Shown one piece after another: positions 41,402 to 61,343 of a stretch of DNA of 64,000 nt. This DNA is from an uncultured Bacilli bacterium. GTDB taxonomy: Bacteria > Bacillota_I > Bacilli_A > RFN20 > CAG-826. Under the pieces are notes generated by a model. The model made no database searches, was not told the origin of the DNA, and was given only the letters and a program-made list of their open reading frames with translations. Positions within the stretch are counted from its first letter, which is position 1. Every line of letters begins with the position of its first letter. The stretch covers positions 1 through 64,000 of the forward strand of contig CALVUI010000004.1 in assembly GCA_944363565.1 (NCBI GenBank). Reading direction: 5' to 3'. The position numbers and the translations under genes are program-made.

Positions 41402-42928
41402 ATGGACAATAACTGCATCATCTCGTTACGTCATGTCTCGAAGGTCTTCGACGGGGTCACCGTCGTCGATGACTTCAACCTCGACATCAAGAAAGGGGAG
41501 TTCGTCACCATCCTCGGCCCCAGCGGCTGCGGGAAGACCACGACCCTCAGGATGATCGCCGGTTTCCAAAACCCCACCAGCGGGGAAATCCTCCTAAACG
41601 GGGAGGATATTTCCAAACTCCCGCCTTATAAGAGGCCGGTCAATACGGTCTTCCAACGCTACGCTCTCTTCCCGTACCTCAATGTCTACGACAACGTGGC
41701 TTTTGGCTTGAAGCTCAAACGGATCCCGGTCCAAACCAAGAATCGGAAAGGCGAGACCGTCACCAAGATGGTGAAGCTGAGCCAAAAGACCATCGACGAA
41801 AAGGTGGCGAGGGCCCTTTCCATCGTCGACCTCGACGAGATGGAGGAACGCGACGTCTCCACCCTTTCGGGTGGGCAACAGCAGAGGGTGGCCATCGCCC
41901 GGGCCATCGTCCTCGAACCCCAGGTCCTCTTACTCGATGAACCCTTGAGTGCCCTCGATCGGAAGATGCGCAAGGACATGCAGATCGAACTCAAGGAAAT
42001 GCATAGGAAACTCGGCATTACCTTCATCTATGTCACCCACGACCAGGAAGAGGCCCTCACCATGAGCGATACCATCATCGTCATGAAGGACGGCCACATC
42101 GAACAGGTCGGGACGCCCGAGGACATCTACAACGAACCGGTTTCGGCCTACGTCGCCGACTTCATCGGGGAGAGCAATATCTACAATGGCACGATGGTCG
42201 GCAAGAAGAAGGTCCGCTTCCTCGGCGGCGTCTTCAACTGCGTCGACGACTTCCCCCTCAACGAAAAGGTCGATGTCGTGGTCCGTCCCGAGGACGTCGT
42301 TTTGGGCAATCCCGGCAAGGGCGTGGTCGACGGCGTCATCGAAAACAAGGTCTTCCAAGGGGTCCATTACTCCTTCTCGGTGGCCGTCGGCAAGGCCGAG
42401 GTCATCGCCCGCGATACCCACGACCGGGCCGTCGGTAGCAAGGTCTCGGTCCACGTCGCCAAAGACAACATCCAGGTCATGCACCGCGACAATCTCGAAA
42501 ACGAATACCGCGACGCCTGCATCACCGGCGAGGGCCAGGTCATGATCGGGGAGGACTCCTTCCCCTGCGACCTGACCCAGCTCCTCAAGGGAAGCCACGT
42601 CGAGGAAGAGGGGAGTTCGATCCTCGTTTCTAAAGACGGGAAACGTTATGACCTCAAGGACGCCGAAGTGATCGCCCGGGTCGCCTTCGACCAGGTCAAT
42701 ATGAGCGACGACCTCGAGACCGGCAAGGCCCAGGGCCGCATCGTCTTCAGCGTCTACATCGGCGACCATTACCATTACATCATCAGGACCCTCGACGAGG
42801 AGGAAGACTACGAGGCCGATTCGCCCTACGAATGGCTCAATAGCGACGTCGTCTCCGTCGATATCCCCGCAAAAGCTATCCGTTTGCAGCTGAAAAAGCC
42901 CTTGGAGGACTATGAAGCCGAAGACTAG
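41402..42928 (+). CDS. potA: Spermidine/putrescine ABC transporter ATPase PotA, 508 aa
   Basis: Walker A GPSGCGKTTTLRMIAG (about 39-54), signature LSGGQQQRVAIARAI (about 153-167) and Walker B LLLDEPLSALD (about 173-183) are typical of PotA, followed by TOBE-type domains from about 255. The protein is about 140 residues longer than usual; the extra part lies within the C-terminal TOBE region (about 375-470, acidic) and recurs with similar character in PotD. An N-terminal insertion in the ATPase (PVQTKNRKGETVTKMVKLSQ) is also seen. AGGAGG precedes the ATG. Confidence 0.94.
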   Translation: MDNNCIISLRHVSKVFDGVTVVDDFNLDIKKGEFVTILGPSGCGKTTTLRMIAGFQNPTSGEILLNGEDISKLPPYKRPVNTVFQRYALFPYLNVYDNVAFGLKLKRIPVQTKNRKGETVTKMVKLSQKTIDEKVARALSIVDLDEMEERDVSTLSGGQQQRVAIARAIVLEPQVLLLDEPLSALDRKMRKDMQIELKEMHRKLGITFIYVTHDQEEALTMSDTIIVMKDGHIEQVGTPEDIYNEPVSAYVADFIGESNIYNGTMVGKKKVRFLGGVFNCVDDFPLNEKVDVVVRPEDVVLGNPGKGVVDGVIENKVFQGVHYSFSVAVGKAEVIARDTHDRAVGSKVSVHVAKDNIQVMHRDNLENEYRDACITGEGQVMIGEDSFPCDLTQLLKGSHVEEEGSSILVSKDGKRYDLKDAEVIARVAFDQVNMSDDLETGKAQGRIVFSVYIGDHYHYIIRTLDEEEDYEADSPYEWLNSDVVSVDIPAKAIRLQLKKPLEDYEAED

Positions 42929-43736
42929 TCGGGGCAGCCGCTTCTTCGCCTTGAAGCGCCAATACCTGGCCATCCCCTACGGGCTCTTCCTGGCCCTATT
43001 CGTGGTCATTCCGCTCCTTCTGATTCTTTTCTACGCCTTCACCGACAGCGAGGGGACTTTCTCCTTCGCGGCCGCCGAGTCCTTCCTGACCTCGGGGGCC
43101 AAGTGGAGCGTCCTCTTCACCTCCCTCTTCGTCGGGATCCAGACCACCCTCATTTGTTTGGTCATCGGTTATCCGGTTGCCTATCTATTGGCGAACCGCA
43201 AGTACAACAAGAATGTGGTTTTGGTCATGCTCTTCGTGATGCCGATGTGGATCAACTTCGTTCTAAGGACCGGGGCCACCCGCGATCTTCTCAGTTGGAT
43301 GGGGATCGACGGGGGCGAGCACCCTTGGGAAGCCACCCTCATCGGCATGGTCTATAACTACCTGCCGTTTACCATATTGCCTCTCTACACCACGATGCTG
43401 AAGCTCGACAAAAGCCAGATCGAGGCGGCCTCGGACCTCGGGTGCAATCCCTTCCAGGTCTTCTTGCGTTCGATCTTGCCGCAGTCCTTGCCCGGCATCG
43501 TCTCGGCCGCCGAGATGGTCTTCATGCCGGTCATGTCTAGCTACGTCATCAGCGATACCCTGTCTGAAGGCAAGATCACCCTCTTTGGGAACTCGATCTA
43601 CTTCAACTTCTCGAACTCCCTCTGGAACGAGGGCTCCTTCATGGCCTTTGTCATGTTGATTCTCGTGGCCCTCGGGATGCTGGTCTCGGGCTTAACGGGC
43701 CATAAAAGCGAAGAAAGGGGGACCGGGAGATGGTAA
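42912..43736 (+). CDS. potB: Spermidine/putrescine ABC permease PotB, 274 aa
   Basis: Six membrane segments and the EAA loop (EAASDLGCNPFQVFLRSILPQ) that docks on PotA identify this permease. It forms the channel with PotC. The gene overlaps potA by 17 bases and potC by 7, so all four pot genes are translated together. GGAGGACT precedes the ATG within potA. Length is normal. Confidence 0.94.
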   Translation: MKPKTSRGSRFFALKRQYLAIPYGLFLALFVVIPLLLILFYAFTDSEGTFSFAAAESFLTSGAKWSVLFTSLFVGIQTTLICLVIGYPVAYLLANRKYNKNVVLVMLFVMPMWINFVLRTGATRDLLSWMGIDGGEHPWEATLIGMVYNYLPFTILPLYTTMLKLDKSQIEAASDLGCNPFQVFLRSILPQSLPGIVSAAEMVFMPVMSSYVISDTLSEGKITLFGNSIYFNFSNSLWNEGSFMAFVMLILVALGMLVSGLTGHKSEERGTGRW

Positions 43737-44590
43737 GCCAGAAAGAAATGTGGAAGAAGATCGCGGCCCAGTCCTTCATCTGGCTGGTCCTGCTTTTGAT
43801 GTATCTTCCCATCCTCACCCTCATCGCCTTCTCTTTCACGACCGCGACCAACCTCGGGACTTGGACCGGCTTTTCCTTCGACCTCTACGCCTCCCTCTTC
43901 CACGATGAGGAGATCATGACCGCCCTCGGAAATACGGTCATCCTGGCCTTGATCTCGGCTTCGGTCTCGGTGTTACTCGGCACCACCGGGGCCATCGGGG
44001 TCTTCTATATGAAAAAGAAGAGCAAGAAGGCTCTGGAATTCGTAACCCAGATCCCGGTCGTCAATCCCGAGATCGTCATCGCCATGTCGCTGGTCGTCAC
44101 CTTCGTCTTCCTTGGAAACTACATCTTCCAGGATTCCCTCTTCTCCTTCTGGACCTTGTTGGCCGGCCACGTCATCCTGTCCCTGCCCTTCGTCTATCTT
44201 TCGGTCAAGCCGAAGCTCCTGCAGATGGACCCCTCCCTTTACGAGGCGGCTTTGGATCTAGGTTGCACTCCCGCGAAGGCGTTGCGGAAGGTCATCCTGC
44301 CGGAGGTGATGCCGGGGGTGGCGTCTGGCTTCTTACTCGCCATCACCCTCTCCCTCGATGACTTCATCGTCACCGCTTTTACGAGGGGTTCGGGCTTGCT
44401 CTCGGGCGTCAATCAGATCGAAACCCTTTCGACCTTGGTCCAGGCCAAGATCAAGAAGGGGCCGATCCCGCCGGAGATGCGGGCCCTCACCACCGTCATC
44501 TTCTTATTCGTCCTCGTCCTCGTGGTCGGGGTGACTTTATATAGGAACCACAAGGCCAAGAAGCCCTTCAAGGCGGCTAGGGAGGGATAA
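43730..44590 (+). CDS. potC: Spermidine/putrescine ABC permease PotC, 286 aa
   Basis: Six membrane segments with the EAA loop YEAALDLGCTPAKALRKVIL define the second permease subunit. TLSLDDFIVTAFTRGSG is typical of PotC. The start overlaps potB and the stop is 1 base from the potD start. Length is normal for the family. Confidence 0.94.
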   Translation: MVSQKEMWKKIAAQSFIWLVLLLMYLPILTLIAFSFTTATNLGTWTGFSFDLYASLFHDEEIMTALGNTVILALISASVSVLLGTTGAIGVFYMKKKSKKALEFVTQIPVVNPEIVIAMSLVVTFVFLGNYIFQDSLFSFWTLLAGHVILSLPFVYLSVKPKLLQMDPSLYEAALDLGCTPAKALRKVILPEVMPGVASGFLLAITLSLDDFIVTAFTRGSGLLSGVNQIETLSTLVQAKIKKGPIPPEMRALTTVIFLFVLVLVVGVTLYRNHKAKKPFKAAREG

Positions 44591-44591
44591 C

Positions 44592-46505
44592 ATGGACAAA
44601 AGGTATTTATTCTTGCTTCTCGGGGCCGGTCTAATGACCCTTTCTTCCTGCGGCCCGGCCGCGGAGAGTAGCGACACGATGTTACTCAGAGTCTACAACT
44701 GGGAGGACTACATCAGCGAGGACCCCGACGTCATCAGTGCTTTCGAGGACTACGTCTACGAGACCGACGGGGTCAGGATCAAGGTCGTCTACGATACGTT
44801 TGACACCAACGAGACGATGCTCAGCCAACTCGAGACCGGGGCCTCGACCTACGATCTTTTGTGTCCCAGTGACTACATGATCCAAAGACTGGCGGCCCGC
44901 GGCATGCTTGAACCCTTCGCCTTCGGCGAGGAACGGGAAGCCCTCTATACCCATGGGACCGCGGGTTGGGAGGATAGCTATTCCCTCTATACCTCGCCCT
45001 ATCTCCAAGATCAGTTCGAGAAGATCAAGGTCAAGGTCGATGGGAAGGACTATCCCCTTTCGAGTTATGCCAAGGGCTACATGTGGGGGACCTTGGGCCT
45101 CATCTACCATCCCGCTTGGTTTACCGATGAGAATTCTTCGACCTACGAGGAAGACATCGAACAGGTCAAGATCGACATGTACGACTGGAATTCCCTCTGG
45201 GACGAGAAGTACCACGGCTCCTTCCAGATCAAGGACTCGATGCGCGATACCTACGCGGTCGGGATCATGCACGGCTACGATGAGGAGTTCCAAAGCTATC
45301 TGGACCTCTATGAAGCCGGGGAGATCAGCGCCGAAGAATACAACGACCGGATCAATACCCTCTTCAATAACATCGTCTACCCTCTAGGGAAGGAAGGGGG
45401 AACCCCCGAAGAGGAAGAGGCCGCCCTTGAGGAAATCGAGGACCATATGGGCAGCGTCCTGATGGACCTCAGGAACAATTCCTACGGCCTCGAGGTCGAC
45501 TCCGGGAAGCAGGACATCGTGGTCGGGCGGACCGGCATCGGCATCGCCTGGAGCGGTGACGCCGTCTGGTCGATGGATCTCGGGGATAACGAGGAGGGGA
45601 TCGAGCTTTACTATTCGGTCCCGAAGACCGGGGCCAACATCTGGTTCGACGGCTGGTGCATGCCCAAGAGCAATTCCCTGAACAAAGAGTACGCCCAGAA
45701 GTTCGTCGACTTCCTGGCCCGCCCCGAAATCGCCTCCCTCAACATGGACTACATAGGCTACACCTCCTTCTCCGGCGGAGACGACATACTTTCCCTCATC
45801 AGGGAATGGTACGACCCCCGCACCTACGAGATGTACCAGTATCTGGAGATCGCCGACGAGGCCCTTAGACCCCAGTACTGGGAGGAAGAAGGGATCCTCT
45901 ATGACGAGGAGACCGGGGAGCCCCTCTATCTCGACGGAAGTGGCGACGAGGACGGTTACATCTACGAAAAGTACGAGATCGAAACCGAGACGGGTCTAAG
46001 GACCATCGACGTCAAGATCTACGTCGGGACTTCCTCGATGGAGGGCTCGACCTACGAGGAAGCCGTGGTCGACGGGGTTCCCATGAGCTGGGACCAGTAC
46101 AACGAGGAAAACGAACTGGGCTGGACCAAACGCGACCTCGGCTGGTTCTTCGACGACACCCTGGTCGAACTCGAGGATTCGGCCTCCCTCCTTTATAGCG
46201 ACGAGATCGAAACCCTGGTCGACAAGGATGGGGACGAGTTCGAAGTGGGCCGTCAGTTCTATGCCCAATATCCGAGCGAGGACATGCTCTCGCGCCTCTG
46301 CATCATGGAGGACTACGGGGCCAACAACGCCTACGTCTTGCGTCTATGGGAAGAGGTCAAGGCCGGGACCATGGAGACTTGGGTCATCGTCGTCTTCTCC
46401 TTAGAAGTCGGAATCGCCGCCTTGGCCCTTTCCTGGTACCTGATCGGGAAGGCGCGTAAGAAGCGCCTCCGCCTCAGAAGGCGGGAAGAAGCCAAGAAGG
46501 CCTAG
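44592..46505 (+). CDS. potD: Spermidine/putrescine-binding lipoprotein PotD, enlarged, 637 aa
   Basis: The signal peptide with lipobox (TLSSC, Cys20) precedes a PotD domain (RVYNWEDYISEDPDVISAFE; YDLLCPSDYMIQRLA). The family is about 350 residues long; here an acidic, tyrosine-rich insertion of about 160 residues (roughly 405-570) splits the last part of the domain, which resumes with YPSEDMLSRLCIMEDYG. A C-terminal membrane segment (WVIVVFSLEVGIAALALSWYL) and a basic tail follow, so the protein is anchored at both ends. The last gene of the pot operon. The role of the insertion is unknown. Confidence 0.9.
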   Translation: MDKRYLFLLLGAGLMTLSSCGPAAESSDTMLLRVYNWEDYISEDPDVISAFEDYVYETDGVRIKVVYDTFDTNETMLSQLETGASTYDLLCPSDYMIQRLAARGMLEPFAFGEEREALYTHGTAGWEDSYSLYTSPYLQDQFEKIKVKVDGKDYPLSSYAKGYMWGTLGLIYHPAWFTDENSSTYEEDIEQVKIDMYDWNSLWDEKYHGSFQIKDSMRDTYAVGIMHGYDEEFQSYLDLYEAGEISAEEYNDRINTLFNNIVYPLGKEGGTPEEEEAALEEIEDHMGSVLMDLRNNSYGLEVDSGKQDIVVGRTGIGIAWSGDAVWSMDLGDNEEGIELYYSVPKTGANIWFDGWCMPKSNSLNKEYAQKFVDFLARPEIASLNMDYIGYTSFSGGDDILSLIREWYDPRTYEMYQYLEIADEALRPQYWEEEGILYDEETGEPLYLDGSGDEDGYIYEKYEIETETGLRTIDVKIYVGTSSMEGSTYEEAVVDGVPMSWDQYNEENELGWTKRDLGWFFDDTLVELEDSASLLYSDEIETLVDKDGDEFEVGRQFYAQYPSEDMLSRLCIMEDYGANNAYVLRLWEEVKAGTMETWVIVVFSLEVGIAALALSWYLIGKARKKRLRLRRREEAKKA

Positions 46506-50307: not shown

Positions 50308-51318
50308 CTAAAGTCCCCATTCCCCTTTTTCCAAGGCCTTTTTGCGGGCTTTTTTCTTCTTGCCGAGGACTCCGAGGCGGAGGCTTCTACCCGATAGAAG
50401 GATATTCAAGAGGAAGAAGAGGACGATGCCGACGCCTAACATTAGGTACATCCAGTTGACGGAGAGGGAAGAACCGAAGACCGTGAGGTCGAGGGAGAAG
50501 GAACCGCTTAAGGCATCGAGCAGCTCATCGACGTGGGGGGCGTATTCGGGGACGCTTCGCATGTAGGCTTCGAGGGAAGCGATCTGGTCGGACATGAAGT
50601 AGTTACGGAGCAATCCCGCCGAATAGGTCCCGGGGAAGAAGGCGGTCAGGTTCTGGGCTCCTTCGGGGAGCATCGAGATCGGCATGTAGCCCCCGATCAG
50701 AAAGCCGATGGCCGCCGACATGATGGCGATCAAAGAGTTGTAGGTATTGCCGCTATGGATGAAGCCCGAGAGGAAGGTCGAGATGGTGGCGGCCGAGATG
50801 ACCGAAAGGATTATGACCAAATAGATGTAGCCGAAGTTGGCGAAGGTGAGGCGGAAGTTGCCAGAGGCCCCGAGATAGGCGAGGCAAATGAAGAGGACGG
50901 CCGAGACGATGATGAGGGTGACGATGCAGTTGAAGACGAAGTAGGAAAAGGAGATGAGGGACTTCGAGACCGGGGCCGCCAAAAACTCGCGGTTCACCCC
51001 CTTCTCGCGGTCGGAGATGATGATGTAGCAGGCATTGAAGGAGACGGAGATGCAGGAGACCGCCAAGATGCCCGAAAGCATCCAGCTATCGATGAGGCGG
51101 TAGGAGGCGTTGATCAAGGGATCGGGATCCTGGAGATTGAGGCCCCCGATGACCCCGGTGACCGCGGAGACTTCGAGTTCCCTCAGGAACAAGAAATAAA
51201 TCGCCAGGGTGATGCAGGGAACCAGAAGCGAAAAGAAGAAGGTCATCTTGTTCTTGAAGAACATCTTCAGGTGCCTCGAAACGAGGGCCCCGAGGAGTTT
51301 CGGGGAATGGGTTTTCAT
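50308..51318 (-). CDS. ABC-2 type permease, 336 aa
   Basis: Six membrane segments in the ABC-2 (DrrB-like) layout: one N-terminal (MTFFFSLLVPCITLAIYFLF), a large extracytoplasmic loop, then five (including FNACYIIISDREKGVNREFLAAPVSKS as the coupling region and NSLIAIMSAAIGFLIGGYMPI). It overlaps the upstream ATPase gene by 4 bases (ATGA), so the two make one exporter. A further extracytoplasmic loop (about 240-290) is acidic. The cargo is unknown; the glycosyltransferase fused to the ATPase suggests a glycosylated substrate. Confidence 0.88.
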   Translation of the reverse strand: MKTHSPKLLGALVSRHLKMFFKNKMTFFFSLLVPCITLAIYFLFLRELEVSAVTGVIGGLNLQDPDPLINASYRLIDSWMLSGILAVSCISVSFNACYIIISDREKGVNREFLAAPVSKSLISFSYFVFNCIVTLIIVSAVLFICLAYLGASGNFRLTFANFGYIYLVIILSVISAATISTFLSGFIHSGNTYNSLIAIMSAAIGFLIGGYMPISMLPEGAQNLTAFFPGTYSAGLLRNYFMSDQIASLEAYMRSVPEYAPHVDELLDALSGSFSLDLTVFGSSLSVNWMYLMLGVGIVLFFLLNILLSGRSLRLGVLGKKKKARKKALEKGEWGL

Positions 51319-53084
51319 TTGCCTTCCTCCTTTTCCTTGTTGAAGTCGATGCCGGTGACGGAGAGGAAGACGTCGTCCATCGTCCCCTTCTTGACCTCGA
51401 AGTCTTTGATGAGGTCCTTGTGGCTAGCAAGGAAGCGCCTGGCTTCCTCCGAGTCCTTGACCGGGAAGCGGTAGGCCAAAGCATCGGTGTTGTAGATGGC
51501 CCCTTTGCTTTGCTCCATCAAAGCATCGAGGTCCTTGGTCCTTTCGGAGTAGGCGAGGACAAAGTCGCTGGCGTACCTATTCTTGAGATCGTTGGGGGTC
51601 CCTTGGGCGATGATCTTCCCATGGTCCATGATCACGACCTCGGAGGCCTTTTCGGCCTCTTCGAGGTAGTGGGTGGTGAGGAAGACCGTCATCCCGGTCT
51701 TTTCACGGATGTCGTCGATCAGGTGCCAGACGCTTTGGCGGGTCTTGGGATCGAGCCCCGTGGTCGGTTCGTCGAGAATCAAAAGCTTGGGTTCGTGGAT
51801 CATCGATCTCGCGATGTCGAGGCGCCGGCGCTGGCCCCCGCTTAGGGCCTTGACGGGACGGTTGAGGAGGGGCTCGAGTTCGAGCATCTCGACGATCTTG
51901 GCGATCCGTTTCTTCTTTTCTTCGCCCGAGATCCCGTAGAACTCGGCCCTGGTCGAAAGGTTTTCGTAGCTGGTCAGGACATCGTCGAGGGTCGAGGTCT
52001 GGAAGACGATCCCGATTTCCCGTTTGACCTCGGTCCTTTCCCTATCGAGGTCCTTGCCGTCGATGAGGATCCTCCCGTAGTCCTTTTCCAGGATGGAGGA
52101 AATGATGTTGATGGTCGTGCTCTTGCCGGCCCCGTTGAGGCCGAGGAAGGCAAAGAGGGCCCCTCTTTTGACTTTAAAGGAGACATCGTCGACGGCCTTG
52201 AGCTTCCCGTAGTTCTTGTAGAGATGGCTGATCTCGAGGATGTATTCATTTTGGCGTTTCTTGGCCGCTTCCTGGCTTTCCCTTTCCCGTCTATCCATGA
52301 TTTCGATGTAGGGCTCGTAGACCGCCTTGGTCTTTTCTTCGCCTAGCAAACGGGCCACGGCCTTGGCATCGGTGGACTTGAGGGGAGTGAGGAAGGAGAC
52401 CATGGGCCTGGCATCCCTCGAGAAATGTTTGAGGACGGTCTTATCGCCGATTTCCTTCCTGGCGATCAGATTTCCCGGCAAAACCGCGGTATCTTTTTCG
52501 AAAAGCCGCGAGAAGGAAAGGTCATCAAGGTAGAATTTGCGGCCATTTATGTCTTCGATGGCCTGACAAAAGAGACTCCCGCATTTGGAGGGATCGAAGA
52601 GGATGATGGCGGGATCATAGAGGCTATGGCCCCGTTTGGAGTCCTTCTTGAGGGGGGCCGCCAGGGCCTTATCCTTTAAATCGAAGGAAACGAGGGGAGC
52701 GATATTCGAAAAAGCCAAGACGTCGGCGTCGATAACAAGGGCCTTGTCTTTTTCGTTTGGGAAAAGATCCGGAATCAGATAACGGAGCAAGGGGTAGGGG
52801 GAGCGCATCCTTAATTCGGGGATCGGGCGGCCGAACCTCTTTTCGAAGGCCTCGGTGGCGTCCACGACCTCAAGGCTGGATTTGGGATTTCTTTTTCTTA
52901 TTTCCCTTTCGATTTCGCTGGCGTGCCTTTTGGAAAAGGGCCGGTAATGGAGGCTCAGATCCAAAAAGGGCATGGTGAGGATATAGAAGGCAATCGGTTC
53001 CTCGTGGTTAAGGGTGAGGGAGAGGGCGGAAAGCATGATCTCCCGGAAGCGGTTATCGGCCGCCGGATAATAGACGCGGAGCAT
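51315..53084 (-). CDS. GT8-like glycosyltransferase fused to an ABC-2 exporter ATPase, 589 aa
   Basis: Residues 1-260 look like a GT8-family glycosyltransferase: FYILTMPFLDLSLHY, the YPLLRYLIPDLFP block, a DxD metal motif in LVIDADVLAF (D119, D121), and LKHFSRDARP (His220), like the 'HF' that ends GT8 domains. A charged linker (about 262-282) leads into a complete DrrA-type ATPase: Walker A GLNGAGKST (315-323), signature ALSGGQRRRLDIARSM (413-428), Walker B LLILDEPTTGLD (434-445). The frame is unbroken, and TAAAAT ends 7 bases before the ATG. I know of no described fusion of this kind. Confidence 0.82.
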   Translation of the reverse strand: MLRVYYPAADNRFREIMLSALSLTLNHEEPIAFYILTMPFLDLSLHYRPFSKRHASEIEREIRKRNPKSSLEVVDATEAFEKRFGRPIPELRMRSPYPLLRYLIPDLFPNEKDKALVIDADVLAFSNIAPLVSFDLKDKALAAPLKKDSKRGHSLYDPAIILFDPSKCGSLFCQAIEDINGRKFYLDDLSFSRLFEKDTAVLPGNLIARKEIGDKTVLKHFSRDARPMVSFLTPLKSTDAKAVARLLGEEKTKAVYEPYIEIMDRRERESQEAAKKRQNEYILEISHLYKNYGKLKAVDDVSFKVKRGALFAFLGLNGAGKSTTINIISSILEKDYGRILIDGKDLDRERTEVKREIGIVFQTSTLDDVLTSYENLSTRAEFYGISGEEKKKRIAKIVEMLELEPLLNRPVKALSGGQRRRLDIARSMIHEPKLLILDEPTTGLDPKTRQSVWHLIDDIREKTGMTVFLTTHYLEEAEKASEVVIMDHGKIIAQGTPNDLKNRYASDFVLAYSERTKDLDALMEQSKGAIYNTDALAYRFPVKDSEEARRFLASHKDLIKDFEVKKGTMDDVFLSVTGIDFNKEKEEGK

Positions 53085-53163: not shown

Positions 53164-53240
53164 GGTCCATTAGCTCAGTCGGTTAGAGCGAGCGCCTTAT
53201 AAGCGCTAGGTCCGGTGTTCAAGCCACCGATGGACCACCA
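53164..53240 (+). tRNA. tRNA-Ile (TAT)
   Basis: Acceptor GGTCCAT/ATGGACC, anticodon stem AGCGC/GCGCT, loop CTTATAA, so the anticodon is TAT, and CCA is encoded. The body resembles tRNA-Ile(GAT). It would read AUA directly, which in most bacteria is done by tRNA-Ile2(CAT) modified by TilS. TATAAT lies at about 53149-53154. Confidence 0.9.
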
Positions 53241-53247
53241 CTTAGGT

Positions 53248-53338
53248 GGAGGCGTACCCAAGCGGCTGAAGGGATCGGTCTTGAAAACCGATAGTGGGGC
53301 CTGCCCCAGCCAGAGTTCGAATCTCTGCGCCTCCGCCA
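53248..53338 (+). tRNA. tRNA-Ser (TGA)
   Basis: Acceptor GGAGGCG/CGCCTCC, anticodon TGA in the loop CTTGAAA, the long variable arm typical of serine tRNAs (GGGGC...GCCCC), discriminator G and encoded CCA. Confidence 0.94.
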
Positions 53339-53414: not shown

Positions 53415-53701
53415 ATTTTGTTGCGTTTTTCCAGTAGATATAAATTGGCTCGAAACTACGGATTTTCTAATTTTAGTCCTACTAGACAAACGATAACCCT
53501 ACTAGAAAAACGTTAGGCTACTAGAATATTCGACTTAGCGAAAAATATAAATAATGGTGCCTTAAACCTCCCCCAGGTAGGTCTTAAATAGTCCTTGGGG
53601 TACCGAGCAAGGGGGACTCACGAAAAATACGGGATAAATATTTTGGAATTCTCGGTTTTTCAAAAAATATATGGGTTTTGTAGGGTTTTTGCTTCCAAAT
53701 A
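53415..53701. other. AT-rich spacer with short repeats
   Basis: There is no gene. CTACTAGA occurs three times at 53479, 53499 and 53518, about 20 bases apart; the first two are followed by (C/A)AAACG. The base composition drops here, marking the left edge of an acquired block. Confidence 0.5.
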
Positions 53702-54145
53702 TTATTGTTTATGAGCCAATTCATAGAGCTCTTTAATTTCTTTTGGTCTATATGAATCGATATTGTTCTCAAGTTCTATTGTCGATCCAAGTTCCTTGGC
53801 CTTCGTATAGTACCATTCCTTGTATTCGAGCATCTGGAGGGCCTTCTTAAGCACTTTGATTTGGTTCAACGTCTTTTCTTTTTGTTCTTTGAAGAAATTA
53901 AGCCTTTCATCGATAGTAGAATCGCCTTGCTTGACCATCATGATAAAACGTTTTATGTCCTTCAGCTCGACGTTTGTCTTCTTGAGACATTCGATTATGA
54001 ATATAGTTTCCACGTCTTGTTCGCTAAATTTTCTTATGCCGTTCTCTCGTTTGATGTCGGGAAGTAAACCTTCCTTGTCATAATAACGGATAGTGGATAT
54101 TGAGATGTTGAATCTTTTGGAAATCTCACCGATTGTATACGTCAT
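53702..54145 (-). CDS. MerR-family transcriptional regulator, 147 aa
   Basis: The N-terminal winged helix (YTIGEISKRFNISISTIRYY, then DKEGLLPDIKRENGIRKFSE) is a textbook MerR domain. The dimerisation helix follows (DERLNFFKEQKEKTLNQIKV). No metal-binding cysteines are present, so the inducer is probably an organic or reactive compound. AAGGAG-type sequence precedes the ATG. It is divergent from an alpha/beta hydrolase, whose promoter carries a MerR-type palindrome (54172-54185). Low-GC codon use suggests transfer. Confidence 0.92.
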   Translation of the reverse strand: MTYTIGEISKRFNISISTIRYYDKEGLLPDIKRENGIRKFSEQDVETIFIIECLKKTNVELKDIKRFIMMVKQGDSTIDERLNFFKEQKEKTLNQIKVLKKALQMLEYKEWYYTKAKELGSTIELENNIDSYRPKEIKELYELAHKQ

Positions 54146-54168
54146 TTTAAATTTCTCCTTTTTATGTA

Positions 54169-54199
54169 TTGACCTAAAGTTAGGTTTAGGGTTTATAAG
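54169..54199 (+). promoter_or_regulatory. MerR-type promoter with 19-bp spacer
   Basis: TTGACC (54169-54174), a 19-base spacer and TATAAG (54194-54199) form the overlong promoter that MerR activators untwist. The palindrome ACCTAA-AG-TTAGGT (54172-54185) lies at the -35 edge and in the spacer. It drives the hydrolase gene at 54240. Confidence 0.75.
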
Positions 54200-54239
54200 T
54201 ATATTAGCACATCAAGTGACTAGAAAGTGAGGAAAAATT

Positions 54240-55232
54240 ATGAATAAAAACGTTGTTTTGGAACAAGAGTGGGACAAGACTTTCAAGTTGGATGAGAATG
54301 TAAACCATGAGAAAGTCGTATTCCACAACAGATTCGGTATCGATTTGGTTGGTGATTTATATTCGCCTAAAAACATTAACGAAGATAAATTACCTGCATT
54401 AGCAGTGTGTGGCCCATTCGGTGCGGTTAAAGAACAAGCCAGCGGATTATATGCGATGGAGATGGCAAAAAGAGGATTCATCACGCTTGCATTTGACCCT
54501 TCATACACTGGTGAAAGTGGTGGTTATCCTCGTTATAACGCATCGCCCGATATCAACACTGAAGATTTTCAAGCAGCCGTAGATTTCTTATCGTCATATG
54601 GGAAAGCAGATCCTGATCGCATCGGAATCATCGGCATATGCGGTTGGGGAGGATTGGCTTTGAATACTGCAAGCATCGACACGAGAATAAAAGTGACAAT
54701 CGTCTCTACGATGTATGACATGAGTAGGATTGCCGCAAAAGGGTATTTTGATCAAAACGACAGCGAGGTAGAGCGTCATAAAATAAGAGACACTTATAGT
54801 AATCTAAGAACAAAAATCTATGGAAGCGGTGATTATGGTAGAGCGGGAGGTTGTATTCCTTTACCAGTACCTGACGAAGTTCCTTTTTATGTCAATGACT
54901 ATAGCGAATACTACAAAGGACGTGCCTATCATCCTCGTTCGCTTAATTCTACGGATGGATGGAATCTTATCGGAACGATGTCTTTCTTGAATGCGCCTAT
55001 TCTTCAATACACGAATGAAATACGCTCGGCAGTCTTAATTATTCATGGCGAAAAAGCCCATTCCTGCTATATGGGAAAAGAGGCCTTTGAGAACATGATG
55101 AAGGGAAATCCGAATCCAGAGAATAAAGAGTTATTAATTATTCCTGGTGCGGTTCATACGGACCTTTACGACAACCTTGACATCATACCTTTCGAGAAGA
55201 TCGAGAGCTTCCTTAGAACTAATTTAAAATAA
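54240..55232 (+). CDS. Alpha/beta hydrolase, dienelactone-hydrolase-like, 330 aa
   Basis: The fold is clear: oxyanion region VCGPFGAVKEQ, nucleophile elbow IGICGWGGLAL with cysteine in place of serine (as in dienelactone hydrolase), and a late histidine in IPGAVHTDLYD. ALAFDPSYTGESGG is typical of the family often annotated YcjY. The substrate is unknown; control by a MerR regulator suggests a reactive or toxic compound. AGGAAAAATT precedes the ATG. AT-rich codon use unlike the core genes indicates acquisition. Confidence 0.85.
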   Translation: MNKNVVLEQEWDKTFKLDENVNHEKVVFHNRFGIDLVGDLYSPKNINEDKLPALAVCGPFGAVKEQASGLYAMEMAKRGFITLAFDPSYTGESGGYPRYNASPDINTEDFQAAVDFLSSYGKADPDRIGIIGICGWGGLALNTASIDTRIKVTIVSTMYDMSRIAAKGYFDQNDSEVERHKIRDTYSNLRTKIYGSGDYGRAGGCIPLPVPDEVPFYVNDYSEYYKGRAYHPRSLNSTDGWNLIGTMSFLNAPILQYTNEIRSAVLIIHGEKAHSCYMGKEAFENMMKGNPNPENKELLIIPGAVHTDLYDNLDIIPFEKIESFLRTNLK

Positions 55233-55253
55233 GTGTATCAGGAATGATATAAC

Positions 55254-55754
55254 ATGAAAGTTACACTTTTGATATTGCCAATCTTTTTGTTTGCAGCATG
55301 TTTGAGCTCTTGCAACAGCACTCGACCAACTACTAATGAAACCGGAAGTTCAACAAACGAAAATCAGGAAAGCGAGAATGAATCAAATGAGGATGAAAAC
55401 GAAATGAAGTTAAAACTTGAGATTAAAGATTATGAATTCGATGTGACACTAGAAGAAAACGATGCCTCGCACGAACTTGTCGAAATGGCAAGAAACGAAC
55501 AGATAACAATCAATTTCGAGGATTACGGCGGTTTTGAGAAAGTCGGTCCTTTGGGAAGAAGCCTGACAACCGATAATACTCGTATCACGACGAAGCCAGG
55601 GGATATCGTTCTTTATCAAGGAAACCAAATCGTGATGTTCTATGGATCGAACACCTGGAGTTATACGATGCTTGGGCATGTCGATGATTTGACTTATTGG
55701 GAAGAGGCATTAGGAGACGACGACGTCGTAGCGACCTTTACCTTATCGGAGTGA
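55254..55754 (+). CDS. Cyclophilin-like-fold lipoprotein, 166 aa
   Basis: A signal peptide with a lipobox (CLSSC, Cys20) is followed by an acidic Asn/Glu/Ser-rich linker and a cyclophilin_like2 (PF18050) domain: FDVTLEENDASHELVEMA, INFEDYGGFEKVGPLGRSL, TKPGDIVLYQGNQIVMFYG, SYTMLGHVDD. Such proteins often accompany alpha/beta hydrolases and oxidoreductases in Bacillota. It begins 21 bases after the hydrolase stop and is probably in the same transcript. Confidence 0.85.
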   Translation: MKVTLLILPIFLFAACLSSCNSTRPTTNETGSSTNENQESENESNEDENEMKLKLEIKDYEFDVTLEENDASHELVEMARNEQITINFEDYGGFEKVGPLGRSLTTDNTRITTKPGDIVLYQGNQIVMFYGSNTWSYTMLGHVDDLTYWEEALGDDDVVATFTLSE

Positions 55755-55762
55755 CAAAAATA

Positions 55763-55837
55763 ATGAATAGAGAAGAATATTCAAGTAAGGGTGTCGTTTT
55801 GTATCAATCCGATAGCACAAAGACATATTTGTATTAA
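55763..55837 (+). pseudogene. Tiny frame, possible gene remnant, 24 aa
   Basis: The frame reads MNREEYSSKGVVLYQSDSTK then TYLY and a stop. 'VVLYQSDSTKTYL' resembles the start of RhuM/Fic-type proteins, but the piece is too short to be sure. It may be the stub of a lost gene. Confidence 0.3.
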
Positions 55838-55839
55838 CA

Positions 55840-55868
55840 TTGACATGAAATAGAACGGGGTCTATATA
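55840..55868 (+). promoter_or_regulatory. Promoter of the Ig-like lipoprotein gene
   Basis: A consensus TTGACA (55840-55845), a 17-base spacer and TATATA (55863-55868) precede the gene by 27 bases, with AAAGGAG before the ATG. This is the best sigma-70 promoter in the window and implies strong expression. Confidence 0.8.
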
Positions 55869-55895
55869 AATTCGTTCTCAAAAGGAGAAAACCGC

Positions 55896-58800
55896 ATGAA
55901 GAAAAGAATCCTGTTGGCCCTTTTGTTGGGGGTATTGCCCCTGACGGGCTGCAATCCCACTTCTTCCTCTACTTCCAGCGGGTCGACCACACCGGAGACC
56001 TCGACTTCCGAGACGGCCCAACCCGTCCTCGTTTCCCAAATCACCTTGAGCGCTTCCAAGACCGAGCTCATCGAAGGCGAGTCCGTCCAACTCGAGGCCG
56101 TCGTTCTTCCCGAAGACGCCTCCGACAAGGCCCTTGTCTACCAAAGCTCCGATCCGAGTGTCGCGACTGTTTCTGAAACCGGTTTGGTAACCGCGATCAA
56201 GGAAGGGAAGGCCATCATCACCGCCGAAAGCGCCGATGCCGGTGAGGCTAAAGCCACCATCGAAATCACCGTCACCAGGAAAGTGGTCCTGGTTTCCGAG
56301 ATCAGCCTCACGGCCGAAAAAACCGAACTCATCGAAGGCGACACGGTCCAACTCACGGCCACCGTCCTTCCGGAAGATGCTGATGACAAAGGCCTCGTTT
56401 ATTCTTCTTCTGATGTTCAAGTGGCGACCGTCTCCGAATCCGGTTTGGTGACCGCCCTCAAGGAAGGCATCGTCACCATCACCGCCGAAAGCGCGGATGA
56501 GGGCAACGCCCAAACCACCATCCAAATCACGGTCAAGCGGAAGATCATCCTCGTTTCGGATATCAACCTGACCGCGGAGAAAACCGAAATCACCGAGGGG
56601 GATACCCTCCAGCTGAATGCCACGGTTTTGCCGGAAAACGCCGACAACAAAGGTCTCGTCTATACCAGTTCCGATGACAAGATCGCCACGGTTTCCGAGA
56701 CCGGTTTGGTAACTGCCCTCAAAGAAGGGAAGGTTACGATCACTGCCGAAAGCGCCGATCCCGGAAATGCCAAAGCCACCATCGATTTGACGATCCTTAG
56801 GAAGATCGTCCTCGTTTCCGAGATCGAATTGACCGCCGACAAGACGGAGATCGAGGAGGGGGAGACGGTTCAACTTAAGGCTACCGTCTTGCCTGAGAAT
56901 GCCGACAACAAGGCTCTGGTCTATTCGAGTTCCGAGCCCGCTGTCGCTACCGTTTCCGAATCGGGTCTTGTGACCGCGATCAAGGAAGGGAAGGCCACCA
57001 TCACCGCCGAAAGCGCCGATGCCGGTGAGGCCAAAACCACTATCGAGATCACCGTCAACAAGAAGATCATCTTGGTCACCAATATCGCCTTGAGCACCGA
57101 GAAGACCGAACTCTTCGTCGGGGAAACGACCAAGATTTCCGCGGTCGTCACCCCCGAAGAGGCGACCGACAAGGCCGTGACCTTCGAATCGTTGACCCCG
57201 GACATCGCCTCGGTTTCCGAAGACGGGCTTGTGGCCGCCTTGGCCAAGGGGACGGCCAAGATCGCCGTTAGAAGCGCCGATGGCAACGCCACTGCCGAAT
57301 TGACCCTGACGATTTTGGAAAAGGACATCCCCTATCTGGCTAATCTTTTAGGGGAGAGCCGCTCTTTGGAATTGCTCCATTCCTCCAAGGGGACCTATGC
57401 CTTGAACGAGACCAGCTATGACTGGAACACCTATAGCGATGGGGCTACCCAGATCAATACCAAGGTCAACGGGGTCCTCTCGGAACAGGTCCTCTATGCG
57501 ATGGAAGGGACTTCCCTCTATGCCTTGGACCTCAAGCAGGGGAGCAATCCCAGTGTTTCCAAGGACTTGATCGGCACGGTCGGGAACGAATTCACCCAGG
57601 AGATGGCGGACGGCTATACCAAGGCCTTCTCTCTCAATGGGGTTTCTACCGTCTCGACATTAGCCCTCAATTACCTCACTTCCGAGTACTTCAACAACAA
57701 AGAGGTCACCTATAGCAGTGTTGCGGAAGGCAGCATCACCACTTACCGGGGCGAGACCTCCTACGAAGAAGCGACCAAGGGGGAGTACTACGAGAACTTC
57801 TTTGCCCTCAGCTTCGACGAGGAGGGGAAATTGACCTCCTTCATCCTCACCGTCGACATCTACGATGCGACCGGTTATGACTTCGAAACCCATAGCCTCA
57901 AGGCCGACGCCGTCAAGCTCGGCCGTTCCATCGCCGTCAAGGCCAGCGTCTCCTACGAGGAGAGGGTGGCGGAGACCGCCGACCGCCTCCAGGAAGCCGA
58001 CTTCCGTCCGACCGAGTACGAAATCGTGACCACGGGCAGCGCTTGGCACCCCAACAACACCCTTTACGTCGGTGACCGGGTCCCGGTCGAAGTCAAGGTC
58101 CTGGCCCCGGCCGTCCATCTGCCTTTGGACTTCAGGATCGAGGATGAGGACATCGGCAATCCCAGTGTCCTCCACCTCGAAAAGATCAACGGGATCTACT
58201 ACATCACCGCCGCAGAGGCCGGCCAAAGCACCCTCACCATCCGTGACCAATTCGACAACACCAAGAGCGTCACCATCAACGTCACCGAGGTCCCGCCTAC
58301 CAAGATCGAAATCCGGGCCAATGCCTTGACCGAGCTCGAGGAAGGCCAGTCCTCCGACTACATGGTCGAGGTCAGTCCCTATTCGACGGTCGACAAGTCC
58401 TTCACCGCCGAATTCCTGACCCCGGAGATGGGGAACTACGCCGAGATCAAGGTCGACCTGACCCGTTCCTGCTTCACCTTGACCGCCAAAGAAATCGAGG
58501 CTGATCAGCAAGTCACCGTCATCGTCAAGTCGACGGTCGATCCTTCGGTCAAGACCGAGATCACCGTCACCATCAAGGACAAGCCGGCCCCGGTCACCAC
58601 GCCCTTAGACGAATTCAAGGCCAGCGTGGTCGGTAACCGTTACAACTATAGTAGCCTCCATGACATCTACTTCACCTCGACGACCGAAGGCTACGTCAAA
58701 CTCTACGGCGGGAACGTCTACACCTTCAACTGGACCGTCGAGGAAGTCGATGGCTTCAGCGATTACCGTCTGATCTTCACCAACGTCGTCCAGACCGCCG

Positions 58801-58964
58801 GCAGCAATACCCGTTATGTCTTCACGGGCGAAGATAGTCCCTACTACAAGCCGGAATCCCCGAGGGAAAGCTTCTCCAATACCTTTGCCAAGGATGGCCA
58901 GGTCTGCCGGCCCTTCTTCGAGATGAACGGCGATTACGTGAAGCGTGACTTCAAACTCAAATAA
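55896..58964 (+). CDS. Lipoprotein with five Ig-like (BIG2) repeats, 1022 aa
   Basis: The signal peptide has a lipobox (LPLTGC, Cys18), then a Ser/Thr-rich linker. Five BIG2 repeats of about 87 residues follow (residues about 43-477), each beginning V-L-V-S-x-I-x-L-[ST]-A and holding LPEDADDKGLVYSSSD-type and ESGLVTALKEG-type blocks. The last about 545 residues are a separate extracellular region with a late BIG2-like segment. BIG2 repeats serve as stalks or adhesion modules on surface proteins. The next gene encodes another large lipoprotein 9 bases later, so they form an operon. Confidence 0.85.
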   Translation: MKKRILLALLLGVLPLTGCNPTSSSTSSGSTTPETSTSETAQPVLVSQITLSASKTELIEGESVQLEAVVLPEDASDKALVYQSSDPSVATVSETGLVTAIKEGKAIITAESADAGEAKATIEITVTRKVVLVSEISLTAEKTELIEGDTVQLTATVLPEDADDKGLVYSSSDVQVATVSESGLVTALKEGIVTITAESADEGNAQTTIQITVKRKIILVSDINLTAEKTEITEGDTLQLNATVLPENADNKGLVYTSSDDKIATVSETGLVTALKEGKVTITAESADPGNAKATIDLTILRKIVLVSEIELTADKTEIEEGETVQLKATVLPENADNKALVYSSSEPAVATVSESGLVTAIKEGKATITAESADAGEAKTTIEITVNKKIILVTNIALSTEKTELFVGETTKISAVVTPEEATDKAVTFESLTPDIASVSEDGLVAALAKGTAKIAVRSADGNATAELTLTILEKDIPYLANLLGESRSLELLHSSKGTYALNETSYDWNTYSDGATQINTKVNGVLSEQVLYAMEGTSLYALDLKQGSNPSVSKDLIGTVGNEFTQEMADGYTKAFSLNGVSTVSTLALNYLTSEYFNNKEVTYSSVAEGSITTYRGETSYEEATKGEYYENFFALSFDEEGKLTSFILTVDIYDATGYDFETHSLKADAVKLGRSIAVKASVSYEERVAETADRLQEADFRPTEYEIVTTGSAWHPNNTLYVGDRVPVEVKVLAPAVHLPLDFRIEDEDIGNPSVLHLEKINGIYYITAAEAGQSTLTIRDQFDNTKSVTINVTEVPPTKIEIRANALTELEEGQSSDYMVEVSPYSTVDKSFTAEFLTPEMGNYAEIKVDLTRSCFTLTAKEIEADQQVTVIVKSTVDPSVKTEITVTIKDKPAPVTTPLDEFKASVVGNRYNYSSLHDIYFTSTTEGYVKLYGGNVYTFNWTVEEVDGFSDYRLIFTNVVQTAGSNTRYVFTGEDSPYYKPESPRESFSNTFAKDGQVCRPFFEMNGDYVKRDFKLK
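56022..57325 (+). repeat. Tandem 261-bp repeats (Ig-like)
   Basis: Five copies of an about 261-bp unit begin near 56022, 56285, 56546, 56807 and 57067. Copies 1 and 4 share long stretches of near-identical DNA (for example in ACCGCCGAAAGCGCCGATG), suggesting recent duplication or gene conversion; the fifth copy is more divergent. Confidence 0.75.
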
Positions 58965-58973
58965 GGAATGAAT

Positions 58974-61343
58974 ATGTCTAAGAAAACCTTCTTCCCGCTC
59001 TTTTTGCTCGGGATCTTCGTCCTGAGTGCCTGCTCGGAAGTCCCGGCCTCGAGTTCCAGCGACTCGACCGGGCCCGCTCCCGAGACTTCTTCCCCTGGTG
59101 GTGAAACCTCGACTTCCGAGGGTCCTAGCGACCAAGACAAGGTCGAGGCCGTCATCAATGTCCTCGAGTCCGTGGGTAGGAGCACCACCTACAGCGTGTT
59201 CTCCGAGGAAGACGACGGGACCGGGATGTCGGTCCTAAAATTGACCGACATCTACACCCCGGAATACATTTCCATCGGCTTCATGAACGGGGGCTACCTG
59301 ACCCTTCCGAGTTACGATTCTTCGCTAGGGGAGACCCTGGTCTATGACTTCAAGTACGATGCCGCGGGCAACGTCGTCTTGGGCAAGGTCGTGACCTATT
59401 ACGACGAGGAAGGGGAGATCAAGACCCTCCGGGATTGCACGGAGCTCGATTACATGAAGCTCTTCGTCGAGGATCCCAACTACGCCCTCGATCCTTCGAT
59501 GTTCGACGTCGAGGCCGGGGTCATCACCACCAAGAACGAGAAGCTCCTCTATGTGCTTTCCCATCAGATGGGCTATTCCCCCGAGACCGACGACTACATC
59601 ATCACCTCGGCCCGTTTCGAGATGGATGACGGTAAGCTGACCTTCTACCTCTACAATCAGATCGATCCCGATTCCACGGGGGTGGAGCTCTTGATCAAGG
59701 CCACCTTCGACGATCTGAACGCCACGAAAGATGAAAAGCTGGAGGGATACATCGCTTCCTATGAGGCCCCGAGCCAGAAACTCGACGCCGAGTCCCTCGC
59801 CTTGTTCCAAGCCGAGACCGTCGGCTTCGAGACCAAGATCCGTTATCGGAGCACCTCCGGCTTCGTCGATTTCGGGAACCTCTCCGTCGCTACCAAATAC
59901 GATGCGGAAAACCCCAATAACAGCCTCGTCTCCTACAAGGTCGAGGACACCATCAACCAGGAGAAATATTCCTACCTCCTATCCTTCGACGAAAACGGCC
60001 AGCCGACCGACCACTTCATCAACGGGAAGAACGAACCGGAGACCCAGAAATTCGACCGCGTCGGTTATTACCTCGGGAACGGGATCTTCCCCATCCAGGA
60101 GGAGATCGACGACTTCTTCTATAGCGATGATGGTTCCTCCTACAAGTACTACGGGGTCAACATCGACCGCCTCTATGAGGCCGTGACCGCCATCTCGGTT
60201 CTCACCGACCTCAACATCAAGTCCATCGATTCCCTGGTCCTATCCAAGGCCGATGCCAAAACCCTCGTCCTCGAAGCCGAACTCTCGGCCTACTACGAGG
60301 ACCTCGAGGGGAACCAGACCGACCTTTCGGTCAATACGGTGTCCACCATGTTGGTGGATCCCATCGTGGAAATCCCCAGTAGTTTTGCTAGTTCCGAGAC
60401 CAGCGACACCCTGGCCCAGGCTTTTGAGGGCATCAAGAACGCCTCCAACTACATCGCCCGCGGCTATGGATTAAAGTCCGATGGCTCCGAAGCCTCGACC
60501 CTGCCTTCCAATAGCTACTACATGAAGAAGGACGAGTACTTCATCATGCACGAGACGAGCCGCGACTACATCACCACCATCAAGGGCTACAAGCAGTATC
60601 AAAATACCCTCATTCCCTTCACCGTCGATGCCCAGGGCAAAGTCGCCCAAAGCGGGGACGTCATTACCGACCAGACCCTCGGGGACATCGTTCCCTGGAA
60701 CGCTTCCCCCGACCTCTTCGAGCAAGTCACCGGCCTTACCTACCGGGTCAAGGACCACGTCAAGAACGTCGACGAGGTCATCTTCGGGGGTTCGACTTTG
60801 AATTCCCTCATCGATTGTTCCTTGACCCTGGCCCTTGATGACCAGGGGCGGCTCGACAAGGTCAACTACCAATATGTCTACCGCGGTTTGCTTTCGGGGA
60901 GGGAAGAACTTTCCTTCGAATATTCCTCCGAGCAGGCCTTCCCGGACTTCATCGACCAAGCGAGCTTCGAGGCCTTGGATGGAGTGACCCACGTCCTGAC
61001 TTCCTGGGAGCAGGAAAAGGACAGCAACATCTATAAGAGGATGAGCCAGATGTTCGGGGTGGAGGCCGCGGACATTCCATATCTCTATGACGCGGAGGTC
61101 TCCAACACCTGGAACCTCGGGACCAACTACGACGGCACCGGTGACATGTGCATCTACTCCAGCAGTGCCGCGGTCTCTGCCTTCATGGAGGAGTATCGGA
61201 ACTACATCGTCTCCCTCGGCTACGCCGAGCAGACGATCGATGGGCTAGAGTATTACGTCAAGGGGAGCATCAAGATCCGCTTCGGCGATGACTTGAGCGG
61301 TTACGACTACTCCGACTACCTCTACTTCGGCCTTGTCGCTTGA
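58974..61343 (+). CDS. Large hypothetical lipoprotein, about 789 aa
   Basis: A signal peptide with lipobox (VLSAC) leads to a Ser/Thr/Pro-rich linker (SSSSDSTGPAPETSSPGGET) and a long acidic, beta-rich extracellular region rich in Tyr and Asp. I recognise no domain. Two ATGs are possible (58968 and 58974); AAGGA is 6 bases from the second, so I prefer it. It follows the Ig-like lipoprotein by 9 bases and ends in a terminator. The two may form a surface complex. Confidence 0.75.
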   Translation: MSKKTFFPLFLLGIFVLSACSEVPASSSSDSTGPAPETSSPGGETSTSEGPSDQDKVEAVINVLESVGRSTTYSVFSEEDDGTGMSVLKLTDIYTPEYISIGFMNGGYLTLPSYDSSLGETLVYDFKYDAAGNVVLGKVVTYYDEEGEIKTLRDCTELDYMKLFVEDPNYALDPSMFDVEAGVITTKNEKLLYVLSHQMGYSPETDDYIITSARFEMDDGKLTFYLYNQIDPDSTGVELLIKATFDDLNATKDEKLEGYIASYEAPSQKLDAESLALFQAETVGFETKIRYRSTSGFVDFGNLSVATKYDAENPNNSLVSYKVEDTINQEKYSYLLSFDENGQPTDHFINGKNEPETQKFDRVGYYLGNGIFPIQEEIDDFFYSDDGSSYKYYGVNIDRLYEAVTAISVLTDLNIKSIDSLVLSKADAKTLVLEAELSAYYEDLEGNQTDLSVNTVSTMLVDPIVEIPSSFASSETSDTLAQAFEGIKNASNYIARGYGLKSDGSEASTLPSNSYYMKKDEYFIMHETSRDYITTIKGYKQYQNTLIPFTVDAQGKVAQSGDVITDQTLGDIVPWNASPDLFEQVTGLTYRVKDHVKNVDEVIFGGSTLNSLIDCSLTLALDDQGRLDKVNYQYVYRGLLSGREELSFEYSSEQAFPDFIDQASFEALDGVTHVLTSWEQEKDSNIYKRMSQMFGVEAADIPYLYDAEVSNTWNLGTNYDGTGDMCIYSSSAAVSAFMEEYRNYIVSLGYAEQTIDGLEYYVKGSIKIRFGDDLSGYDYSDYLYFGLVA

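Follow-up and report, generated by a model that had tools for sequence, protein, structure and literature searches.

Can an enzyme of sugar transfer and the ATPase of an exporter be a single protein and, if so, would the pump carry away what the enzyme makes? The question is raised by a locus in the window, as we call the whole analysed stretch of 64,000 nucleotides from an uncultured Bacilli bacterium. A prediction made from its letters had proposed a GT8-like glycosyltransferase joined in frame to a DrrA-type exporter ATPase, and a physical coupling between adding a sugar and exporting the product.

Two domains in one chain

The unbroken protein of the original prediction is indeed present: a single open reading frame at 51315–53084 (all coordinates in this paragraph refer to the minus strand) encodes 589 residues without a stop, matches both Glyco_transf_8 and ABC_tran in Pfam, and has full-length homologues in 16 genomes. 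Its first domain, residues 1–262 (52299–53084), is assigned to GT8 with a predicted GT-A fold on the basis of an AF2 model of the domain alone and the conservation count described below; a linker of roughly residues 249–282 (52239–52338), with a long helix predicted at 249–280 by DSSP on the AF2 model, joins it to a DrrA-type ABC ATPase domain with a C-terminal extension, residues 282–589 (51315–52241). Downstream of the fusion lies the gene of an ABC-2 permease of 336 residues (50308–51318) with, by hydropathy, about six transmembrane segments and a Pfam match to ABC2_membrane_3 (PF12698, 56.6 bits). The start of the permease gene and the stop of the fusion gene share four nucleotides, 51315–51318, the overlap that had been foreseen.

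The Pfam match of the first domain is partial, Glyco_transf_8 (PF01501) covering residues 10–146 only with 35.4 bits against a cut-off of 24.3; ABC_tran is found at residues 299–442 with 125 bits, and DrrA1-3_C at residues 495–576 reaches 22.7 bits, below its cut-off of 27.4. In NCBIfam, the ATPase half comes closest to DrrA (TIGR01188), matched over the full profile length with 289 bits, which is below the cut-off of 312, and the permease resembles DrrB weakly. The motifs lie where the first reading had placed them: D119-x-D121 and H220 in the GT domain and, in the ATPase, Walker A at 315–323 (GLNGAGKST), the LSGGQ signature at 414–418 and Walker B with E439. Q362 and H472 are present as well. 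The A-loop, Walker A/B, Q-loop, signature, D-loop and H-loop form a complete set that is invariant in the alignment of 17 fusions. The window fusion is a predicted GT8-fold domain and, complete in its motifs, a DrrA-type ATPase in one chain.

Predicted structure

The full-length fusion was modelled by AF2 with a mean pLDDT of 90.8 and a pTM of 0.78. A search of the PDB with this model returned ABC chains only, and the GT domain was therefore modelled separately, residues 1–262 alone giving a pLDDT of 90.5 and a pTM of 0.91. The best structural match of the domain is the galactosyltransferase LgtC (1g9r; Z 22.1, rmsd 3.0 Å over 229 residues), a comparison to be read with the facts that the AF2 input alignment included true GT8 relatives and that the model carries no information on activity or assembly. 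Other GT8/GT24-type enzymes follow closely, and glycogenin is found at a Z of about 17–18. For the ATPase, the best match is 4yer_B, TM_1403 (Z 31.8, rmsd 4.2 Å over 273 residues). A GT-A fold is predicted for residues 1–262, so the original worry that a model might reveal no such fold finds no footing.

Profile searches with the GT sequence give GlyE and LgtC as its best relatives of solved structure. With LgtC, GlyE, the GT8 domain of WbbM and WciN, the window domain has in common the predicted GT-A fold and the DxD and C-terminal His metal ligands, whereas enzymes of the LgtC type are not joined to a transporter, and the window copy is without the equivalent of N153, the glutamine of DQ and the G..K of HxxG..K. 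GT8 enzymes such as GlyE, whose structure 5gvv is among the best matches in both the profile and the structure searches, act on glycoproteins, and one could thus imagine a glycocin-like system in which the GT modifies a short peptide and the pump exports the glycosylated peptide or protein. We consider this highly improbable: peptide exporters usually bear a C39 protease domain, and the flanks of the cassette, compared for ORFs of at least 80 amino acids, contain no conserved small ORF or peptidase.

Distribution and surroundings of the fused cassette

Two further genomes of the window's genus hold the full-length fusion, with 60% and 49% identity (37 genomes searched), and a GT-domain search of the family (224 genomes) added 14 fusion loci in five other genera. 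ORFs, BLAST and alignment together place the fusion and the following permease in 17 genomes including the window, belonging to six genera of one family; the permease lies downstream in 17 of 17 loci, and the GT–ATPase junction is at the same place in all fusions, with 37–49 residues between the columns of V243 and of Y292 in the A-loop. Because 16 other genomes carry the same fusion, with the permease, an assembly error or a chance read-through is ruled out, and the related genomes, where signs of a local error might have been expected, do not point to one.

Outside the family, all near relatives in the order and class samples are single-domain GT8 proteins, and a scan of the order of G619 matched in three of 200 genomes. 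A separate family of proteins of about 590–630 amino acids with a weak GT8 stretch is common in this order (about 20 places; e.g., L070:4515–6383 in G212). Unfused GT8 genes that are close kin of the fused GTs were seen in G102 (L075:2823–3644) and G106 (L178:4626–5324). In the tree, the G102 protein branches as the sister of the fused GT from L060, and no ATPase lies near its gene; the fusion may therefore also split again.

The distribution of the cassette is patchy, and the flanking genes differ between loci, which argues that the cassette is self-contained and without a gene for synthesis of the acceptor. The neighbourhood was considered as a clue to the substrate and set aside, the flanks being unrelated housekeeping genes (tRNA methyltransferase, UvrD-like helicases, CofD-like, LemA, peptidase M3). 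Patchiness and varying flanks are also reminiscent of resistance cassettes, and the best NCBIfam match of the ATPase, just below the cut-off, is the daunorubicin-resistance protein DrrA; the GT might inactivate an antibiotic or a toxic small molecule by glycosylation and the fused DrrAB-type pump expel the product. Antibiotic producers, with their separate pairs of macrolide glycosyltransferase and exporter, provide the model for such self-protection. We nevertheless find it unlikely, as no producer or resistance genes were seen near the cassette and known drug glycosyltransferases belong to GT1, with a GT-B fold, and not to GT8.

In three genera, permease and binding-protein genes like those of a spermidine/putrescine ABC importer lie within a few kilobases of the fusion (window 42912–46505, L060:1690–4911, L066:9158–12001) and may reflect nothing but an ancestral location. 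At window positions 53500–56000, adjoining tRNA-Ile and tRNA-Ser (53164–53338), the GC content is 37–44%, compared with about 54% for the window; this stretch, with a MerR-type regulator recognized by eye (53702–54145), an S15/DLH-like hydrolase (54240–55232) and a cyclophilin-like lipoprotein (55254–55754), looks like a recently acquired island. The window also encodes a predicted lipoprotein of 1022 residues with five Big_2 immunoglobulin-like repeats (55896–58964) and, adjoining it, a lipoprotein-like ORF of 791 residues (58968–61343).

An unfused three-gene operon in Clostridia

In scans of named public genomes, the window GT alone gave no match and the GT alignment of genus g20 gave 80 loci. 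In 13 of the latter (among them L101, L108, L113, L139, L143 and L149), GT8, ATPase and permease are separate genes in the order of the fused cassette, on a single strand, each abutting or overlapping the next; by record titles or sequence kinship, these loci were assigned to Clostridia MAGs, including Candidatus Gallimonas faecavium. The remaining loci are named copies of known fusions or GT8 genes without an adjoining ATPase of the fusion type. Across the 13 operons, the ATPases are 59–65% and the permeases 43–48% identical to their fused-cassette counterparts, and the GT and ATPase genes of six operons share a reading frame. An unrooted ATPase tree gathers the operon sequences into a single supported group (97/100), separate from the fused ATPases. 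Most simply, these data are explained by a joining of the first two genes in an older GT8–ATPase–permease cassette, the trees being unrooted and the direction unproven.

A fusion found within an otherwise unfused three-gene cassette is a Rosetta-stone case, and it therefore supports the view that sugar transfer and export are functionally coupled; the functional link between the GT8 domain and the exporter is the best-supported point of this analysis, held with high confidence on the strength of fusion and operon together. Of the predicted coupling of sugar addition to export, the physical side is supported, by the fusion in six genera and the unfused operon in Clostridia. Unconnected to this, several Anaeroplasmataceae loci (L150, L156, L158–L162 and L165) have a single-domain GT8 gene followed, 0.2–1.4 kb on, by the gene of a 396-residue ABC ATPase, which is 28% like the fusion ATPase and of an unrelated subtype.

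Losses in the GT domain of the window's lineage

The window's lineage, g1, comprises three genomes: that of the window, G032 and G033. We aligned 46 GT8 domains, fused and unfused, and counted 28 columns that are at least 93% conserved in the 43 sequences outside g1. The window and G032 keep 12 of these and G033 keeps 13, compared with 21–28 in the 43 others, most of which keep all 28; for the 14 fusions outside the window's genus, the count is 25–28. D119, D121 and H220 are invariant in all 46 domains. The two aspartates correspond in the profile alignment to the DxD metal ligands of LgtC, and H220 corresponds to the metal-ligand histidine of GT8 enzymes. The rest of the active site has changed: the window has YDPA for NSG, DL for DQ, IAR for NEQ and HFSRDAR for HF..G.K, with the Asn of FNSG replaced by D157, and g1 is also without the aromatic stretch PFFHVYNIKQW that most other members conserve. 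The full GT8 signature (DxD, NSG, DQ, NEQR, HF..G.K) is intact in the 14 fusions outside g1 and in the operon GTs.

The domain also evolves fast. In the tree, the g1 GT branches measure 0.9 to 5 changes per site; at about 81% ATPase identity, the GTs of the window and G032 are 39% identical, versus 56–61% for pairs within g20; and the Nei–Gojobori dN/dS of the GT is about 0.40, with dS near saturation, between the window and G032, versus 0.02–0.21 in other clades. Such accelerated and loosely constrained evolution would fit a GT half that decays neutrally as a passenger on an ordinary exporter. Against this, which we hold to be very unlikely, the three g1 genomes all have an open, full-length ORF in which D119, D121 and K219-H220-F221 are invariant, the dN/dS is still about 0.4 and not 1, and the fold is predicted with high confidence.

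The active GT8 enzyme WciN has been reported with Leu at the position of LgtC Gln189 (PMC9240355); loss of the glutamine alone is therefore not decisive, and the case rests on the summed losses. Some activity may survive in the window GT, yet the substitutions suggest that the domain, as an enzyme, is probably weak or dead and has been kept for binding or gating. We classify it by its GT8 fold and, the remaining active-site motifs being absent, not as an active GT8 enzyme. The sugar-adding part of the predicted coupling is accordingly plausible where the GT8 motifs are intact, as in most members, and doubtful for the window protein, where most family-invariant positions outside the metal triad are lost.

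The same pattern can be taken further, to a GT8 half that is purely binding or regulatory in all members and would sense UDP-sugar and license ATP hydrolysis, without a transfer reaction anywhere in the family. That g1 keeps the metal triad, loses most other GT8 positions and still maintains the fusion speaks for it, and Wzt provides a precedent with its binding, non-catalytic carbohydrate module. We would give such a family-wide role a low probability, however, since the other 14 fusions and the operon GTs retain the full signature under purifying selection.

Host cell wall

A domain search of the window genome found no PF00905 (peptidoglycan transpeptidase) and no PF00953 (MraY/WecA-type transferase). 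Both are absent from all 16 fused-cassette genomes tested and present in all seven operon genomes tested; the completeness of the MAGs weakens such absences for single genomes but not for the 16 together, and control genomes gave the expected matches. The fused form thus apparently occurs in wall-less and the split form in walled bacteria. It follows for the fused hosts that the product may be something other than a wall or undecaprenyl-linked glycan, and export of a wall or teichoic-acid polymer on an undecaprenyl carrier is disfavoured. Occurrence of the cassette both with and without a wall argues against a wall polymer or an undecaprenyl-linked glycan and leaves glycolipids, glycosylated small molecules and glycopeptides as product candidates.

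Proposed mechanism

Starting from what can be read in the sequences, namely a conserved fusion, an operon of the unfused genes, an intact ATPase and a degraded GT, we propose a two-gene cassette that glycosylates and exports, the GT product being flipped outward and the g1 domain now serving as a binding module; we put this forward tentatively, at somewhat less than an even chance. On the cytoplasmic face, the ATPase of an ABC-2 exporter of the DrrAB type would bear the GT8 domain, and dimerization of the ATPase would bring two GT domains to each pump. In most members, a UDP-sugar would supply the GT with a hexose for an acceptor that is small and amphipathic; a membrane lipid is the most likely one, diacylglycerol for example. 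The GT would then pass its product to the pump for delivery to the outer leaflet; the role of the fusion would be to keep enzyme and pump together. In g1, with catalysis probably lost or weakened, the domain might bind the metal and UDP-sugar or the product, and so gate the pump or dock its substrate.

The lipid acceptor, the outward flipping and the gating role are what we infer, and the direction of export and the product are suggested by family resemblance. That the GT of most members makes the pump's cargo, probably a hexosyl lipid, we hold with moderate to low confidence. Since exporters of the DrrAB type carry drugs and peptides as well, a lipid is not singled out as cargo; a flipped glycolipid is our best guess. 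Bolder, and in our judgement doubtful, is the claim that these proteins represent a novel class of exporters, where a GT built into the ATPase would make glycosylation and translocation the work of one machine and the window lineage would have turned the enzyme into a metal- and nucleotide-sugar-binding regulator of the pump.

Relation to known systems and significance

Several known systems share parts of this design. DrrA/DrrB, known from daunorubicin resistance and, as DrrABC, from mycobacterial lipid export, has the same ATPase subtype and an adjacent ABC-2 permease gene, but DrrA is without a GT domain and the fusion scores below the NCBIfam drrA cut-off. The Clostridia operon consists of related parts in the same order, though as three separate genes and in walled hosts. 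Carbohydrate modules on ABC transporters were reportedly surveyed by Mann et al. in Glycobiology in 2019.

In the Wzm–Wzt O-antigen exporter, the ATPase Wzt carries a C-terminal carbohydrate-binding module and couples the state of the glycan to export (PMC9445017, PMC11231755). As in the fusion, a sugar-related domain shares a chain with an exporter ATPase; however, the Wzt module is a C-terminal beta-sandwich that only binds, whereas the extra domain of the fusion is N-terminal and of the predicted GT-A type, and the Wzt cargo is an undecaprenyl-linked polymer, whereas the fusion hosts are without the PF00953 enzymes with which synthesis on such carriers usually begins. By its N-terminal extra domain and the lack of a PF00953 enzyme in its host, the window fusion falls outside the Wzt type, which is defined by the C-terminal beta-sandwich module, the Wzm partner and an undecaprenyl-linked substrate, and the analogy may be one of logic, its GT domain being comparable in that sense to the carbohydrate-binding module. 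Our literature search, of partial coverage, found no published case in which a glycosyltransferase and an exporter ABC ATPase are fused.

The handover of glycolipids and glycosides from enzyme to flippase is usually hard to study, as the partners meet only transiently. A pair in a single chain, its unfused operon kin and a lineage with a degraded enzyme together make up ready-made constructs for testing the coupling of transfer and transport. For the small, apparently wall-less gut Bacilli that carry it, organisms known from metagenomes only, the cassette is a first handle on the export of surface glycans or glycolipids.
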